Shown in pieces: positions 35,045 through 42,768 of a DNA stretch of 64,000 nucleotides. The notes below the pieces were generated by a model. It worked only from the letters and a program-made list of their open reading frames with translations. It had not been told where the DNA came from and did not search any database. Source of the DNA: Halorubrum sp. PV6. GTDB lineage: Archaea; Halobacteriota; Halobacteria; Halobacteriales; Haloferacaceae. Made by a program: the position numbers and the translations under genes. The stretch covers positions 2,170,001 through 2,234,000 of the forward strand of contig NZ_CP030064.1 in the NCBI RefSeq assembly GCF_003990725.2. Direction: 5' to 3'. Position 1 is the stretch's first letter; every line of letters begins with the position of its first letter.

Positions 35045-35149
35045 GCGGTCACGAACCCCGACGCGGTTCGGGGTGTGACCCCGGCGCTGCGGTCTCAGTT
35101 TCTGCTATCGGGGCGAAAGGTAGAATTGTCCGTAGCATCTTCGGGACCC

Positions 35150-37699
35150 ATGGAGCCCGATCCCGCGGACGGCCGAGACGTTCCCGCGCTCGACGCCTTC
35201 CGCGGATCGGAGCCGGCCGGCGGGGGCCCGCGGCGAGTGCTGCTCGTCGACGACGAACCGGGCGCCGCCGACCTCGCGGCCACCCACGTCGAGCGCCTCG
35301 TCGACGGCGTCGAGACGGTGACGCGGACCTCGCCGGCGGACGCGCTCGCGGTGGTCCGCGAACAGCGCGTCGACTGTGTCGTCAGCGACTACAACATGCC
35401 CGAAAGCGACGGGCTCGAACTCCTCGAAGACGTTCGGGCGGTCGACCCCGGACTCCCATTCGTGCTGTTTACCGGCCGCGGGAGCGAGGAGATCGCGAGC
35501 GAGGCGATCTCGGCGGGCGTCACCGACTACCTCCAGAAGGGCGTCGGCCGCGACCGCTTCGAGATGCTCGCGAACAGCGTCGAAAACGCCCTCGACCGGC
35601 AACGCGTCGAGCGCGACCTCCGGGGGGTGAACGCGAAGGTCACCGCGATCCACGAGTTCGCCTCCGACGTGGCCGCGGCGGAAGACGCGGAAGACGTGTT
35701 AACGCGTCTCGTCTCCGCCGCCGAGCGAATACTGTCGTTCGACCGCTGCGTCTCTGTCCGCCGCCACGGCGACCAACTCATCCCTGCGGCGCGCTCGGAG
35801 AACGTCAGCGAAGACGAGGTCAGGACGTTCGACGTCGGCGAAGGCGTCGTCGGGGCCACCGTCGCCGAGGAGCGCACCATCGTCGTCGACAACCTCAGCG
35901 TCGACCCGTCTGACCCGGAGGAGCTCGAAGACCCGAACGACCCCGGACGGGAGACGGCGGGCAGGGCCACGGAAGCGGCATCAGCCCCCGCGGACGATCA
36001 GCGTCGCGCCGAGGAGCTGGCCGACCCGGTCGGCGACGACATTCGCTCTGCGATCAGCGTCCCGATCGGTTCGTACGGCGCGTTTCAGGCCGTCTCCGAC
36101 GGGTACGCCGCCTTCGACCGGAGCGACGTCGAGTTCGCCGAGCTGCTGGCCGCGCACGCGGCCGACGCGCTCGAACAGATCGAGACGGAGAACACGCTGC
36201 GGACCGAGCGAGACCGGGTGGCGGCGCTCTTCGACGACCTCCCGCTGCCGGTGGCGAGGGCCGTTTCGTCGCCGGGGGACACGCCGAAGCTCGACGCCGT
36301 CAACGACGCGTTCGAGGCGGTGTTCGGACTCTCCGGGCCGGACCTCGACTACGCGACGATCCGCGAGGGGATCGTTCCGGAGGGGAGCGAGGATGTCGAC
36401 CCCCTCCCGGTGATAGACGCCGCGGAGCCGCTACAGCGGGAGGTTGAGCGGGAGACGACCGACGGGCGCCGCAACTTCATCCTCAACGTCCTCCCGGTCG
36501 AACAGCCGAACGAGACGATCGTCTACGCCCTCTACGCCGACATCGACGAGCAGAAGCGGGTCGCACGGACCCTCCGGCGGCTCCACGAGACGACGCGGGA
36601 GATGCTCCGGGGCGAGGACCGCGAGGAGATCGCGTCGATCGCCACCCGAGCCGCGATCGACATCTTAGAGTTCCCGAGCAGCGGGGTCCGGCTGTACGAC
36701 CCCGACACGAACACGCTGTTGCCGACCGCGATCAGCCGGGAGGCGACCGACGCGCTCGGCGAGCGCCCCGCGTACGGCCCCGGAAGCGGGCGCCTCTGGG
36801 AGGCGTTCGAGACGGGCGAGCTGGTCGTCGTCGACGACCTCAACGAGGTCGAGACCGCCATCGGCTACGGCGAGCACCGGAGCCTGCTCATCGTCCCGCT
36901 CGGCGACCACGGCATCATGCCGCTCGGCTCGCGGGAGCCGGGCGTGTTCGACGACACGGCGGTGCAGTTGGCGCGGGTCCTCGGCGCGAACGTGACCGTG
37001 GCGCTCGACCACGCGCAGCGCACGGCGCAGCTCCGCGAGCGCGACGCGGAGTTACAGCGGGAGATCGACCGCCTCGAAAAGTTCGCCGGCCTCGTCTCTC
37101 ACGACCTCCGGAACCCGCTCAACGTCGCCGCCGGGCGGCTCGCCCTCGCGCAGGGGAAGGTCGACGACGAGGGCGCGCGCGAGGAGCTCGAAGCGGTCGC
37201 GGCCGCCCACGACCGGATGGAAGAGCTCATCGAGGACCTGCTCGCGCTGGCGCGACACGGCCAGACGGTCGACGAGCCGGAACCGGTCTCGCTCGCGGAG
37301 ACGGCCGCGAGGGCGTGGCAGACCGTCGACACGGGGGACGCGGTGTTGCGGCGTCCCGACGACTCGCTCGCGGTCGAGGCCGACCCGGAGCGCCTGCGGA
37401 CGCTCTTGGAGAACCTGTTTACCAACAGCGTCGAACACGGCGCGACCGCCGCCGACGCGGGGGCGGCCGACCACACTACGGTCACGGTCGGCCCGCTCTC
37501 AGACGGCTTCTACGTCGCCGACGACGGCCCCGGTTTCGAGATGGACCCCGAGGAGGCGGTCGAGTACGGCATCTCGAGTGACCCGTCCGGGACGGGCTTC
37601 GGGCTCGCGATCGTCCGGGAGATCGCGGCCGCACACGGCTGGACGCTCACGGTGACCGACGACGACGGTGTGCGGTTCGCGTTCCGAACCGACGGCTGA
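35150..37699 (+). CDS. hybrid sensor histidine kinase: receiver-GAF-PAS-GAF-HisKA-HATPase
   Basis: A soluble 849-residue kinase. Order: receiver domain at about 28-145 (phosphoacceptor Asp in CVVSDYNMPESDG), GAF at about 165-345 with a long acidic insert, PAS at about 370-480, GAF at about 490-640, HisKA with the phosphorylated His in FAGLVSHDLRNPLNVAAG, and HATPase (NLFTNSVEHG, DDGPGF, GTGFGLAI). No transmembrane segment, so it senses a cytosolic signal. Having the receiver at the N-terminus of the kinase suggests that it takes phosphate from another kinase. ATG 35150 removes an unlikely leader. A second protein with the same REC and kinase ends is at 51478. Confidence 0.92.
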   Translation: MEPDPADGRDVPALDAFRGSEPAGGGPRRVLLVDDEPGAADLAATHVERLVDGVETVTRTSPADALAVVREQRVDCVVSDYNMPESDGLELLEDVRAVDPGLPFVLFTGRGSEEIASEAISAGVTDYLQKGVGRDRFEMLANSVENALDRQRVERDLRGVNAKVTAIHEFASDVAAAEDAEDVLTRLVSAAERILSFDRCVSVRRHGDQLIPAARSENVSEDEVRTFDVGEGVVGATVAEERTIVVDNLSVDPSDPEELEDPNDPGRETAGRATEAASAPADDQRRAEELADPVGDDIRSAISVPIGSYGAFQAVSDGYAAFDRSDVEFAELLAAHAADALEQIETENTLRTERDRVAALFDDLPLPVARAVSSPGDTPKLDAVNDAFEAVFGLSGPDLDYATIREGIVPEGSEDVDPLPVIDAAEPLQREVERETTDGRRNFILNVLPVEQPNETIVYALYADIDEQKRVARTLRRLHETTREMLRGEDREEIASIATRAAIDILEFPSSGVRLYDPDTNTLLPTAISREATDALGERPAYGPGSGRLWEAFETGELVVVDDLNEVETAIGYGEHRSLLIVPLGDHGIMPLGSREPGVFDDTAVQLARVLGANVTVALDHAQRTAQLRERDAELQREIDRLEKFAGLVSHDLRNPLNVAAGRLALAQGKVDDEGAREELEAVAAAHDRMEELIEDLLALARHGQTVDEPEPVSLAETAARAWQTVDTGDAVLRRPDDSLAVEADPERLRTLLENLFTNSVEHGATAADAGAADHTTVTVGPLSDGFYVADDGPGFEMDPEEAVEYGISSDPSGTGFGLAIVREIAAAHGWTLTVTDDDGVRFAFRTDG

Positions 37700-38188: not shown

Positions 38189-39496
38189 ATGGCGACGTAT
38201 CACATCGAAACGTACGGCTGCAGTTCAAACCGGGGCGAGAGCCGGGAGATAGAGCGGACGCTCCGTGACGGCGGTCACCGCCCGGCGGACGGTCCCGACG
38301 ACGCGGACGTTGCCATCCTCAACACCTGTACGGTCGTCGAGAAGACGGAACGGAACATGCTCCGGCGCGCCGAGGAGCTAGAGGAGAAGACGGCCGACCT
38401 CGTCGTCACCGGCTGTATGGCCCTCGCGCAGGGCGACACCTTCCGCGAGGCCGGCGTCGACGCCGAGATTCTCCACTGGGACGAGGTGGCCTCGCACGTC
38501 CTCAACGGGGAGTGTCCCACCGTCACCCCCGACGCCGAACCCGTCCTCGACGGCGTCGTCGGCATCCTTCCCATCGCGCGCGGCTGTATGAGCAACTGCT
38601 CGTACTGTATCACCAAGTTCGCGACCGGCCGCGTCGACTCGCCGTCGGTCGAGGAGAACGTCGAGAAGGCGCGGGCGCTGGTCCACGCCGGCGCCAAGGA
38701 GATCCGCGTCACCGGACAGGACACCGGCGTCTACGGCTGGGACGACGGCGACCGGAAGCTCCCGGAGCTGCTCGACCGGATCTGCGACATCGACGGCGAG
38801 TTCCGGGTGCGGCTCGGGATGGCCAACCCCGGCGGGATCCACGGCATCCACGAGGAGTTGGCCGACGTGTTCGCCGAAAACGAGGAGTTGTACGACTTCA
38901 TTCACGCGCCGGTCCAGTCGGGCTCCGACGAGGTGCTCGAAGAGATGCGCCGCCAACATCGCGTCGACAAGTTCCGCGAGGTCGTCGCGACGTTCGACGA
39001 CCGGCTCGACCACTGGACGCTCTCGACCGACTTCATCGTGGGCTTCCCGACGGAGACCGACGCCGACCACGAGCGGTCGATGGATCTGCTCGCTGAGGTC
39101 CGACCGGAGAAGATCAACGTCACGCGCTTCTCGAAGCGTCCCGGCACCGACGCGGCCGAGATGAAGGGGCTCGGCGGGACAATTAAAAAGGAGCGCTCGA
39201 AGGCGATGTCCGAACTGAAGATGGAGGTCGTCGCCGAGGCGTACGAGGCGATGGTCGGCGAGACGTTCGAGGTGCTCGTCGTCGAGGAGGGCACCGGCGA
39301 CTCCGTGAAGTGTCGCGACGGCGCGTATCGCCAGATAATCGTCCAGAACGCGACCGACCGCGGGGTCGAGGTCGGAGAGTTCCTCGAAGTGACGGTAACC
39401 GGCCACAACACCGTCTACGCGTTCGGCGAACCGACGGACGCGGACGCGACCGCCGAGCGCGACGAGCGGCCGGAGTCGACGCCCTCCTCCGCGTGA
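38189..39496 (+). CDS. tRNA (N6-threonylcarbamoyladenosine(37)-C2)-methylthiotransferase
   Basis: Radical-SAM enzyme that methylthiolates t6A37 in ANN-decoding tRNAs (archaeal e-MtaB type). The N-terminal UPF0004 domain supplies Cys11, Cys47 and Cys76 for the auxiliary Fe-S cluster. The radical-SAM motif is Cys133-x3-Cys137-x2-Cys140 (GCMSNCSYC). The C-terminal TRAM domain (about 365-415: GETFEVLVVEEGTGDSVKCR... VTVTGHNTVYAFG) binds RNA. 435 residues is normal. ATG 38189 gives the family start MATYHIETYGC. Confidence 0.93.
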   Translation: MATYHIETYGCSSNRGESREIERTLRDGGHRPADGPDDADVAILNTCTVVEKTERNMLRRAEELEEKTADLVVTGCMALAQGDTFREAGVDAEILHWDEVASHVLNGECPTVTPDAEPVLDGVVGILPIARGCMSNCSYCITKFATGRVDSPSVEENVEKARALVHAGAKEIRVTGQDTGVYGWDDGDRKLPELLDRICDIDGEFRVRLGMANPGGIHGIHEELADVFAENEELYDFIHAPVQSGSDEVLEEMRRQHRVDKFREVVATFDDRLDHWTLSTDFIVGFPTETDADHERSMDLLAEVRPEKINVTRFSKRPGTDAAEMKGLGGTIKKERSKAMSELKMEVVAEAYEAMVGETFEVLVVEEGTGDSVKCRDGAYRQIIVQNATDRGVEVGEFLEVTVTGHNTVYAFGEPTDADATAERDERPESTPSSA

Positions 39497-39536: not shown

Positions 39537-40646
39537 TTAGTCGCGCTCGGCGAACCCGGCCGTCGGTGACGCCGAGCCGCTACTGATCGGGCCGGCGTCG
39601 CGCTGGTCCGGAAGCCGGATGCGAACGACGGTGCCCGTCGGCTCGTTGTCGGCGAACTCGACCGTGCCGCCGGAGCGGGTGACGGTCCAGTAGATCATCC
39701 ACAGACCGAGCCCCTCGGTGTGTGCGAGGGGCGTCTCCTCGACGTTTTCCAGGGCTTCCCGCTCTTTGGGGGGAATCCCCTGGCCGGTGTCTTCGATGTC
39801 GACGCAGCGCGTCCCGTCGGCGGCCTCCCACACCCGAACCGTGACGGCGGTGTCGTCGGGCGTGTGGTCGACCGCGTTTCGGAGCGCCTCCTCTATCGCG
39901 AGCGGGACCGCAGGGTGCGCTTGGACGACGCAGTCGTCGGCGACCGCTGTCCGGATGTCGGCGTCGGGGTGGTTCGCGGTCAGCTGCGCCACGCGCTCGT
40001 CGACCACGCCGGCGAGCGCGAGCGGGTACCGCGCGTCCGTCCGCTAGATCGACGCGATCCGGCGCGTCCGGTCGCTCGTCTCCGCGAGGTCTTTTAAGTG
40101 ACTCCGGGCCGTCCCGGCCCGCTCCGCGAGTTCGTCCGCGTCGTCTACGGTTTCGATGCCGTCGAGCGTGCCGAGCGCGACCGAGAGCTCGGTCCGGATG
40201 TTGTGGCGCAACACCCGGTCGCTGATAGAGAGGAGGGTGGTGAGCTCCTGCGCCTCGGTGAGCTGTTCGTCCGCTTTGACCACGTACAGGCCGCCGCGCG
40301 ACCCGACCGCCGCACCGAGGCTCGCGGCGAACGAGACCAGAAACGAGAACTTGAACGCGTGGTGTTCGAGCCACCAGATCGTCCAGATGATGACCGCGAG
40401 GACGGAGAAAAAGAGGATCACGGCGGCACAGATGCGTACCGCCCGCCACTCGCCGGCCCGAGAGAGGTCCCATCGAGCGACGTCGACGGCGGTGTATACG
40501 CCGACGGCGGCGAGCGGGAACACGAGCGCAAACTCGAGCAGCGTCGCGACTCCCCCGCCGGCGAAGACGAGGTGGCCCGCGCCGAGCGCGACACAGACCC
40601 CTCCCAGCGCGGCGAATCCGTGGCAGGGAGCGACCCGTTGGATCAT
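39537..40646 (-). pseudogene. membrane histidine kinase interrupted by one in-frame TAG
   Basis: A single reading frame from ATG 40646 to the stop at 39537 is broken only by TAG at 40044-40046 (minus strand). The first part, 200 residues, has about four transmembrane segments (about 12-125) and a HisKA domain with His in RVLRHNIRTELSVALG. After the TAG the frame continues RTDARYPLALAGVVDERV into a complete HATPase domain (EEALRNAVDHTPDD, DTGQGIP, GLGLWMIY). Without the stop it would be a normal 369-residue haloarchaeal sensor kinase. The first half alone cannot bind ATP; the second half could start at GTG 40007. A nonsense mutation or sequencing error is the simplest reading. Confidence 0.85.
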
Positions 40647-40698: not shown

Positions 40699-42768
40699 CT
40701 ACGCGTCGTCGTAGATCATCTCCACGTCGTCGGCGAACCGGTCTAAGATGTTGCGGCGCTTCTTCTTCATCGTGGGCGTGAGAAGATCGTTGTCCTCGCT
40801 GAACTCCTCTTCGACGAGGCGGAACTGTTTGATCTGCTCGTACGACTCGAACTCCTCGTTGACGCGGTCGACCTCCGCCTCGATGCGCTCGCGGACGCGG
40901 TCGTCACGACAGATCGACCGAGGCTCGTCGGCGAGGTCGATACCGCGCGTCTCCGCCCACGACGCCAGCTTCTCGAAGTTCGGGACGATGAGCGCGGAGA
41001 CGAACTTCCGCCCGTCGCCGAGGACGACGCACTGCTCGACGAACTCGTTTGCGGCGAACCGGTCTTCGATCGGGCCGGGCGCGACGTTTTTGCCGGTCGA
41101 GAGCACGAGCAGCTGCTTTGCGCGCTCGCGGAAGGCGACGTAGCCGTCCGGCCGGAGTTGGACGATGTCGCCCGTGTTGAACCACGGGTCGTCCGGGTCC
41201 CCGCCGCGTTCGTCCGGGGGCGTGCCGGCGACGACGGCGTCGTCGGGAAGTCGGTCCGGTTCGGTGAACGCCTCCGCCGTCGCGTCCGGGCGGTTCCAGT
41301 AGCCGTCGGTCACCTGCGGCCCGCGAACGAGCAGTTCGCCCACGTCGCCGGGGAGGTTCGCGACCTCGTCGCCGACGACCGTCCCGTCGATGGCGACCTC
41401 GGTGTCGAGGACCGGCGTGCCAACGGTGCCGACCTTCGGCTCCTCGGGCGGGTTCACGCAGATCACCGGCGAGGTCTCCGTCAGCCCGTACCCCTCCAGT
41501 ATCGGCAGGTCCATCGCGTGGTACAGCGAGCAGAGCTCCGCCGACAGCGACCCGCCCCCGGAGATGAAAAACTCGATGTTGCCGCCGATCGCCTCGCGGA
41601 CCGACGAGAAGACGAGGCGGTCCGCGATAGCGCGTTTCGCGTCGAGGACGGCCCCCGGATCGTCGGCCTCGTGGTGCGCTTGCCCGACTCCGACCGCCCA
41701 CTCGAAGATGCGCTCTTTGACCGGCGACTCGCTCGCCTGCTCGCGGATCGCGTCGTACAGCTTCTCGTAGACGCGCGGGACGCTCGTCGTCGTCGTCGGG
41801 CGGACCAGTTGAAAGTCCTCTCTGAGCGTGTCGGGGCTCTCGGCGTAACAGACCGTCGCGCCGGCGGCGAACATCATGTAGTGGCCGGCGAGCCGCTCGA
41901 AGACGTGCGCGAGGGGGAGGAACGAGAGCGTCGTCGACTCGGCGCTGACGCCCGGCGTGCCGGGGGCGCGGCCGGGATGGTCGGCGAACCGCCGGTAACA
42001 CTGGTTGACGTTCTCGCGGAAGTTCGCGTGGGTGAGGCGGACGCCCTTCGGCTGGCCGGTCGTCCCGGAGGTGTAGATGAGACTCGCAAGATCCGTCATC
42101 TCGGCCGCGTCGATCCACGACTCGTAGGCCGCCACGTCGAGCGTCTCGTCGCCGAGCGCGTGGACCTCGCCGAGGGTGTACACGTCGTCGACGGACAGCG
42201 CCGAGGGCTCGTCGCCCGCGTCGCCCTCCAGCCGCCGCGCGACCGCGTCCGGGTCGATATCGTCGAACGTCACGACCGCGTCGAGCTCGTGGTCGAGGTC
42301 GTCGACGACTTCGAGCACCTCGTCGAGCAGTTCGCGGTTCTCCGCGACCACGACGGTCGCTTCCGGGTCCGCGAGCAGGTAGCGGACCTGTCGGGGCGAC
42401 GAGGAGGCGTACACGGTCGTGACCGTCGCGCCGGCGGCCAGCGCGGCGAAGTCGGTCTGAGCCCACTCCATGCGGGTCTGGGCGTACAGCGCCACGCGGG
42501 TGTCGGCCTCGACGCCGAGTTCGCGGAACCCGGCCGCGAGCCGCCGGACGATGTCGCGCATCTCGGCGTAGGTCACGTCGCCGTACTCGCCCGCACCGGC
42601 GGCCGGAAGGACGCCGCTCGAAACGAGCGACCGGTCGTAGATTCCGCCTTTATACCGCTGGGCGAGTCGGTCCGCGTTGCGCTCGGCGGACCGCTCGAAC
42701 ATCCGGGGGAGGGTCTCTCGGGCGACCACGTCGTCGGTGAACTCCCGCTCCGCCTCTCGCCAGTTCAT
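40699..42768 (-). CDS. long-chain fatty acid-CoA ligase (FadD15 type)
   Basis: Activates fatty acids to acyl-CoA with ATP. The 689 residues of the AMP-forming ligase family include the P-loop LASLIYTSGTTGQPKGV (about 230-247), the GYGLTETSPV adenine-binding motif, WFNTGDIVQLRPDGYV, and the C-terminal TMKKKRRNILDRF with likely catalytic Lys residues. The size and the long N-terminal part match the FadD15/YngI-like large ligases. TATA gtttatact (reverse of 42790-42798) lies about 25 bases before the start, so the mRNA is leaderless. Confidence 0.92.
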   Translation of the reverse strand: MNWREAEREFTDDVVARETLPRMFERSAERNADRLAQRYKGGIYDRSLVSSGVLPAAGAGEYGDVTYAEMRDIVRRLAAGFRELGVEADTRVALYAQTRMEWAQTDFAALAAGATVTTVYASSSPRQVRYLLADPEATVVVAENRELLDEVLEVVDDLDHELDAVVTFDDIDPDAVARRLEGDAGDEPSALSVDDVYTLGEVHALGDETLDVAAYESWIDAAEMTDLASLIYTSGTTGQPKGVRLTHANFRENVNQCYRRFADHPGRAPGTPGVSAESTTLSFLPLAHVFERLAGHYMMFAAGATVCYAESPDTLREDFQLVRPTTTTSVPRVYEKLYDAIREQASESPVKERIFEWAVGVGQAHHEADDPGAVLDAKRAIADRLVFSSVREAIGGNIEFFISGGGSLSAELCSLYHAMDLPILEGYGLTETSPVICVNPPEEPKVGTVGTPVLDTEVAIDGTVVGDEVANLPGDVGELLVRGPQVTDGYWNRPDATAEAFTEPDRLPDDAVVAGTPPDERGGDPDDPWFNTGDIVQLRPDGYVAFRERAKQLLVLSTGKNVAPGPIEDRFAANEFVEQCVVLGDGRKFVSALIVPNFEKLASWAETRGIDLADEPRSICRDDRVRERIEAEVDRVNEEFESYEQIKQFRLVEEEFSEDNDLLTPTMKKKRRNILDRFADDVEMIYDDA

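Follow-up and report, generated by a model that had tools for sequence, protein, structure and literature searches.

Sporulation kinase B (KinB; PDB 3d36) is among the kinases of solved structure that are matched by the family profile of a Halorubrum membrane kinase, the match covering the DHp and ATPase domains (residues 144-348). Compared with PDB 3d36, the archaeal group adds membrane helices in front of these domains. Within the genus, kinases that share both locus (mtaB-fadD) and architecture with the copy in Halorubrum sp. PV6 occur in Halorubrum sp. Boch-26 (L041), H. salipaludis (L042), and H. distributum (L044); they are 56-65% identical to it and have the H-box and ATPase motifs in common with it. 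However, each of the three is encoded by one uninterrupted open frame with TGG (Trp) at a column where PV6 has an in-frame TAG, so that the PV6 copy is interrupted between its two domains. A literature search for published Halorubrum histidine-kinase pseudogenes gave nothing. We analyzed this locus in a window of 64,000 nucleotides, the whole stretch of DNA under study, which belongs to a 3.04-Mb, 2-contig genome of the Halorubrum group; a single assembly of the species was used.

The interrupted kinase reading frame

The kinase gene occupies positions 40646 to 39537 of the window on the minus strand, a strand that an earlier, sequence-only reading of the same DNA had left unstated. Translation of this strand gave a frame of 369 codons whose sole interruption is a TAG at 40046-40044 (codon 201), with 200 residues before it and 168 residues after it, up to a TAA at 39537-39539. 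Neither translation nor alignment revealed a frame shift, a second internal stop, or a gap anywhere in the frame, and the halves before and after the TAG both align with the same single homologous proteins, from residue 1 to about 351-369. These results confirm the claim of the sequence-only reading that a single TAG, with the frame unshifted, divides what is one kinase on both sides. GC contents at the first, second, and third codon positions were 0.69, 0.48, and 0.87 before the TAG and 0.74, 0.51, and 0.90 after it; since third-position GC is high on both sides, both halves have the coding character of this genome. By computation, about 2.5% of random substitutions in the gene would be nonsense. 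Two intact genes served as synteny anchors, namely mtaB (38189-39496, plus strand; tRNA threonylcarbamoyladenosine methylthiotransferase, MiaB-like-B; TIGR01578 over cut-off) and a gene for a fadD-like, AMP-forming acyl-CoA synthetase (40699-42768, minus strand), which ends in a TAG of its own. Elsewhere in the window, positions 35075-37699 encode a hybrid protein that combines a response-regulator receiver at its N-terminus with a histidine kinase at its C-terminus and is kept near the locus in relatives.

The N-terminal part of the kinase (40047-40646, minus strand; 200 codons) carries membrane helices and a complete DHp hairpin, and the H-box RHNIRTEL is read there, its His148 being invariant in the alignment. 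Beyond the TAG the frame continues unchanged into the C-terminal part (39540-40043, minus strand), with the N-box EEALRNAVDH and the motifs DTGQGIP and GLGLW. The read-through product matched HATPase_c (PF02518) with 57.7 bits against a curated cut-off of 26.4, and the C-terminal open reading frame scored as HATPase_c in Pfam even alone. In the kinase part before the TAG, Pfam returned no HisKA match and no other match. Of the proposed order, HisKA before the stop and HATPase after it, the latter therefore stood, while the former was not recovered as a Pfam domain and was replaced by a DHp assignment based on the H-box, the AlphaFold model, and the profile matches to solved kinases. For the read-through protein, AlphaFold (mean pLDDT 78.8, pTM 0.58) predicted helices at residues 7-29, 33-59, 63-93, 100-162, and 170-202, and the ATPase fold from residue 207; judging from model and sequence, the first three of these and the start of helix 100-162 would be the membrane helices. 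Since helix 170-202 is followed by the ATPase fold from residue 207, codon 201 is predicted to lie where the second DHp helix ends, right before the ATPase domain. The read-through product fits a sensor histidine kinase, having HATPase_c and a DHp hairpin with a phosphoacceptor histidine; in the assembly, where codon 201 is TAG, the two domains do not stand on a single continuous polypeptide.

The codon in relatives and losses of the gene

A genus-wide search identified the 29 closest Halorubrum homologues, and the column of the TAG is occupied by Trp in every one of them (29/29). A same-locus set was formed by 17 homologues that adjoin the same mtaB and fadD or dinG and are readable at the site, and the codon there is invariably TGG (17/17). 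All close relatives accordingly have a sense codon, as expected of a recent nonsense pseudogene, albeit not the CAG or GAG that the sequence-only reading had anticipated for this comparison, and from TGG the PV6 codon is reached by one transition (G-to-A). Two clearly separate genes at this place, an arrangement that had been held to speak against a broken kinase, were found in none of the 17 same-locus orthologues, nor in any homologue found. The possibility that the stop is conserved in relatives was rejected, since several sequences flagged as containing internal stops have them at or beyond the protein ends; the exception is H. californiense, with a TGA at another codon. The H. saccharovorum kinase (L038:1516-2616, L049:6001-7101) has an insertion of roughly 20 residues between the DHp helices and is otherwise open.

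At least 14 relatives lack the kinase and have fadD close behind mtaB, and the short mtaB-fadD gaps of relatives without the kinase held no convincing kinase remnants. By mtaB plus fadD, the closest relatives of PV6 are the genomes G017 and G037, and the genus search found a close kinase homologue in neither; in G017, fadD comes directly after mtaB. At the place of the kinase between these two genes, G017 has a differing short reading frame that resembles a small membrane protein (L122:2840-3110). The orthologue of H. californiense DSM 19288 (L048/L025; L048:5930-7092) is, like the PV6 copy, broken at the same locus by a nonsense codon at a Trp position, but it differs in that another codon is affected (TGA, near residue 59) and in that a frameshift is also present near the start (residue 25-30). 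It is an independent loss, and one that is further advanced. Since so many relatives lack the kinase and the H. californiense copy is broken, the kinase is dispensable, an accessory gene within the genus that is repeatedly absent or broken between mtaB and fadD. The H. coriense (G008) orthologue is split over two contig ends (L052:6001-6417, L129:24-551) with about 75 codons missing, possibly by a mobile element or repeat, or merely by an assembly gap.

Constraint on the gene and age of the stop

Using FastTree, we constructed one tree of the kinase and one of its neighbor genes (mtaB plus fadD). The ratio of substitutions at codon positions 1+2 to those at position 3 was 0.197 on the PV6 kinase branch vs. 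0.181 for the whole kinase tree and, for the part after the TAG, 0.162 on the PV6 branch vs. 0.173 for the tree; with 0.069 on the PV6 branch, the neighboring fadD is under far stronger constraint. As codon-position constraint on both sides of the TAG is like that of intact copies, these ratios indicate that ordinary constraint acted on the kinase through most of its history, and that the stop is either recent or a base error. Long-term decay is unsupported by the ratios, although the PV6 copy has the most private changes of the set, with 11 at 120 otherwise invariant columns as compared to at most 5 of about 110 in the other copies. In the kinase tree no terminal branch is longer than that of PV6, and in the neighbor-gene tree only one is; the surplus of private changes could reflect either this long branch or a longer spell of relaxed constraint.

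Explanations for the stop codon

Among the options offered by the sequence-only reading, a fresh nonsense mutation is the best supported, and we consider it very probable that the TAG arose recently and inactivated a dispensable membrane histidine kinase. TAG would have replaced TGG, a Trp codon that is otherwise invariant, through a single G-to-A transition. The uniformity of that codon in relatives, the absence from the PV6 frame of any other stop, gap, or frameshift, the retention of the catalytic motifs, the comparable constraint on both sides of the TAG, and the patchy, repeatedly lost orthologues all argue for this explanation; on the other side, the analysis drew on a single assembly of the species, which leaves some probability of a base-call error, and the private changes at invariant columns are most numerous in the PV6 copy. 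Following such a mutation, translation would yield the membrane helices and the dimerization domain (DHp) but end short of the ATPase domain. We infer that the truncated product would remain able to dimerize but be unable to autophosphorylate, and that signaling through the kinase would consequently be lost. The PV6 copy would then represent one more loss of this accessory kinase gene, caught early. Such ordinary gene decay matters little beyond annotation, in which the locus should appear as an interrupted kinase and not as two genes, but it does provide a clean example of the repeated loss of accessory signaling kinases in a single archaeal genus.

A base error of sequencing or assembly, the true genome having TGG and an intact kinase, is an unlikely explanation. 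It would agree with the equal constraint before and after the TAG, with the intactness of all motifs, and with the reliance on one assembly only. However, the TAG site is outside any homopolymer and the change is a substitution, whereas indels are the error type typical of poorly polished long reads. Moreover, the neighboring mtaB, fadD, HTH, and hybrid-kinase genes match their relatives over their length, and relatives lose the affected gene in any case.

We regard as very unlikely a newly split histidine kinase, in which both halves are made and reassemble, the membrane/DHp protein being phosphorylated in trans by a separate ATPase-domain protein that starts at GTG 40007. The corresponding mechanical open reading frame (39540-40007, minus strand) has 156 amino acids. 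The predicted position of the TAG at the DHp/ATPase hinge, the HATPase_c score of the C-terminal frame alone, and the constraint kept in both halves would suit such a split, but one stop may fall at a hinge by chance. All 17 same-locus orthologues are unsplit. The GTG encodes Val214, which lies in helix 211-225, the first of the ATPase domain, and it is not kept as a start by relatives; the 40 bases before it show no obvious Shine-Dalgarno sequence. With neither split relatives nor a conserved internal start, the two-gene kinase is disfavored.

Recoding or readthrough of the TAG by pyrrolysine, a suppressor tRNA, or a programmed mechanism is extremely unlikely: the frame beyond the TAG is open and constrained, as this explanation would predict, but a pyrrolysine-recoded gene was rejected since the genome yielded no pyrrolysyl-tRNA synthetase (PylS) above the family cut-off and no CUA-anticodon tRNA among the tRNA genes found (RF00005 search, a list not strictly complete; an intron-bearing tRNA-Trp that it missed was found separately and has the anticodon CCA), TAG is a routine stop with which about 9 further likely genes in the window terminate, fadD included, relatives carry Trp and not a stop at the site, and the archaeal stop-codon readthrough so far demonstrated is named as selenocysteine and pyrrolysine (2021 review, PMC8211752). 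No positive support was found for either the split kinase or readthrough.

The tetranucleotide CTAG is strongly avoided in the window (positions 1-64000), with 12 occurrences vs. about 41 expected from the counts of CTA, TAG, and TA, and one of these 12, at position 40044, would have been created by the nonsense mutation.
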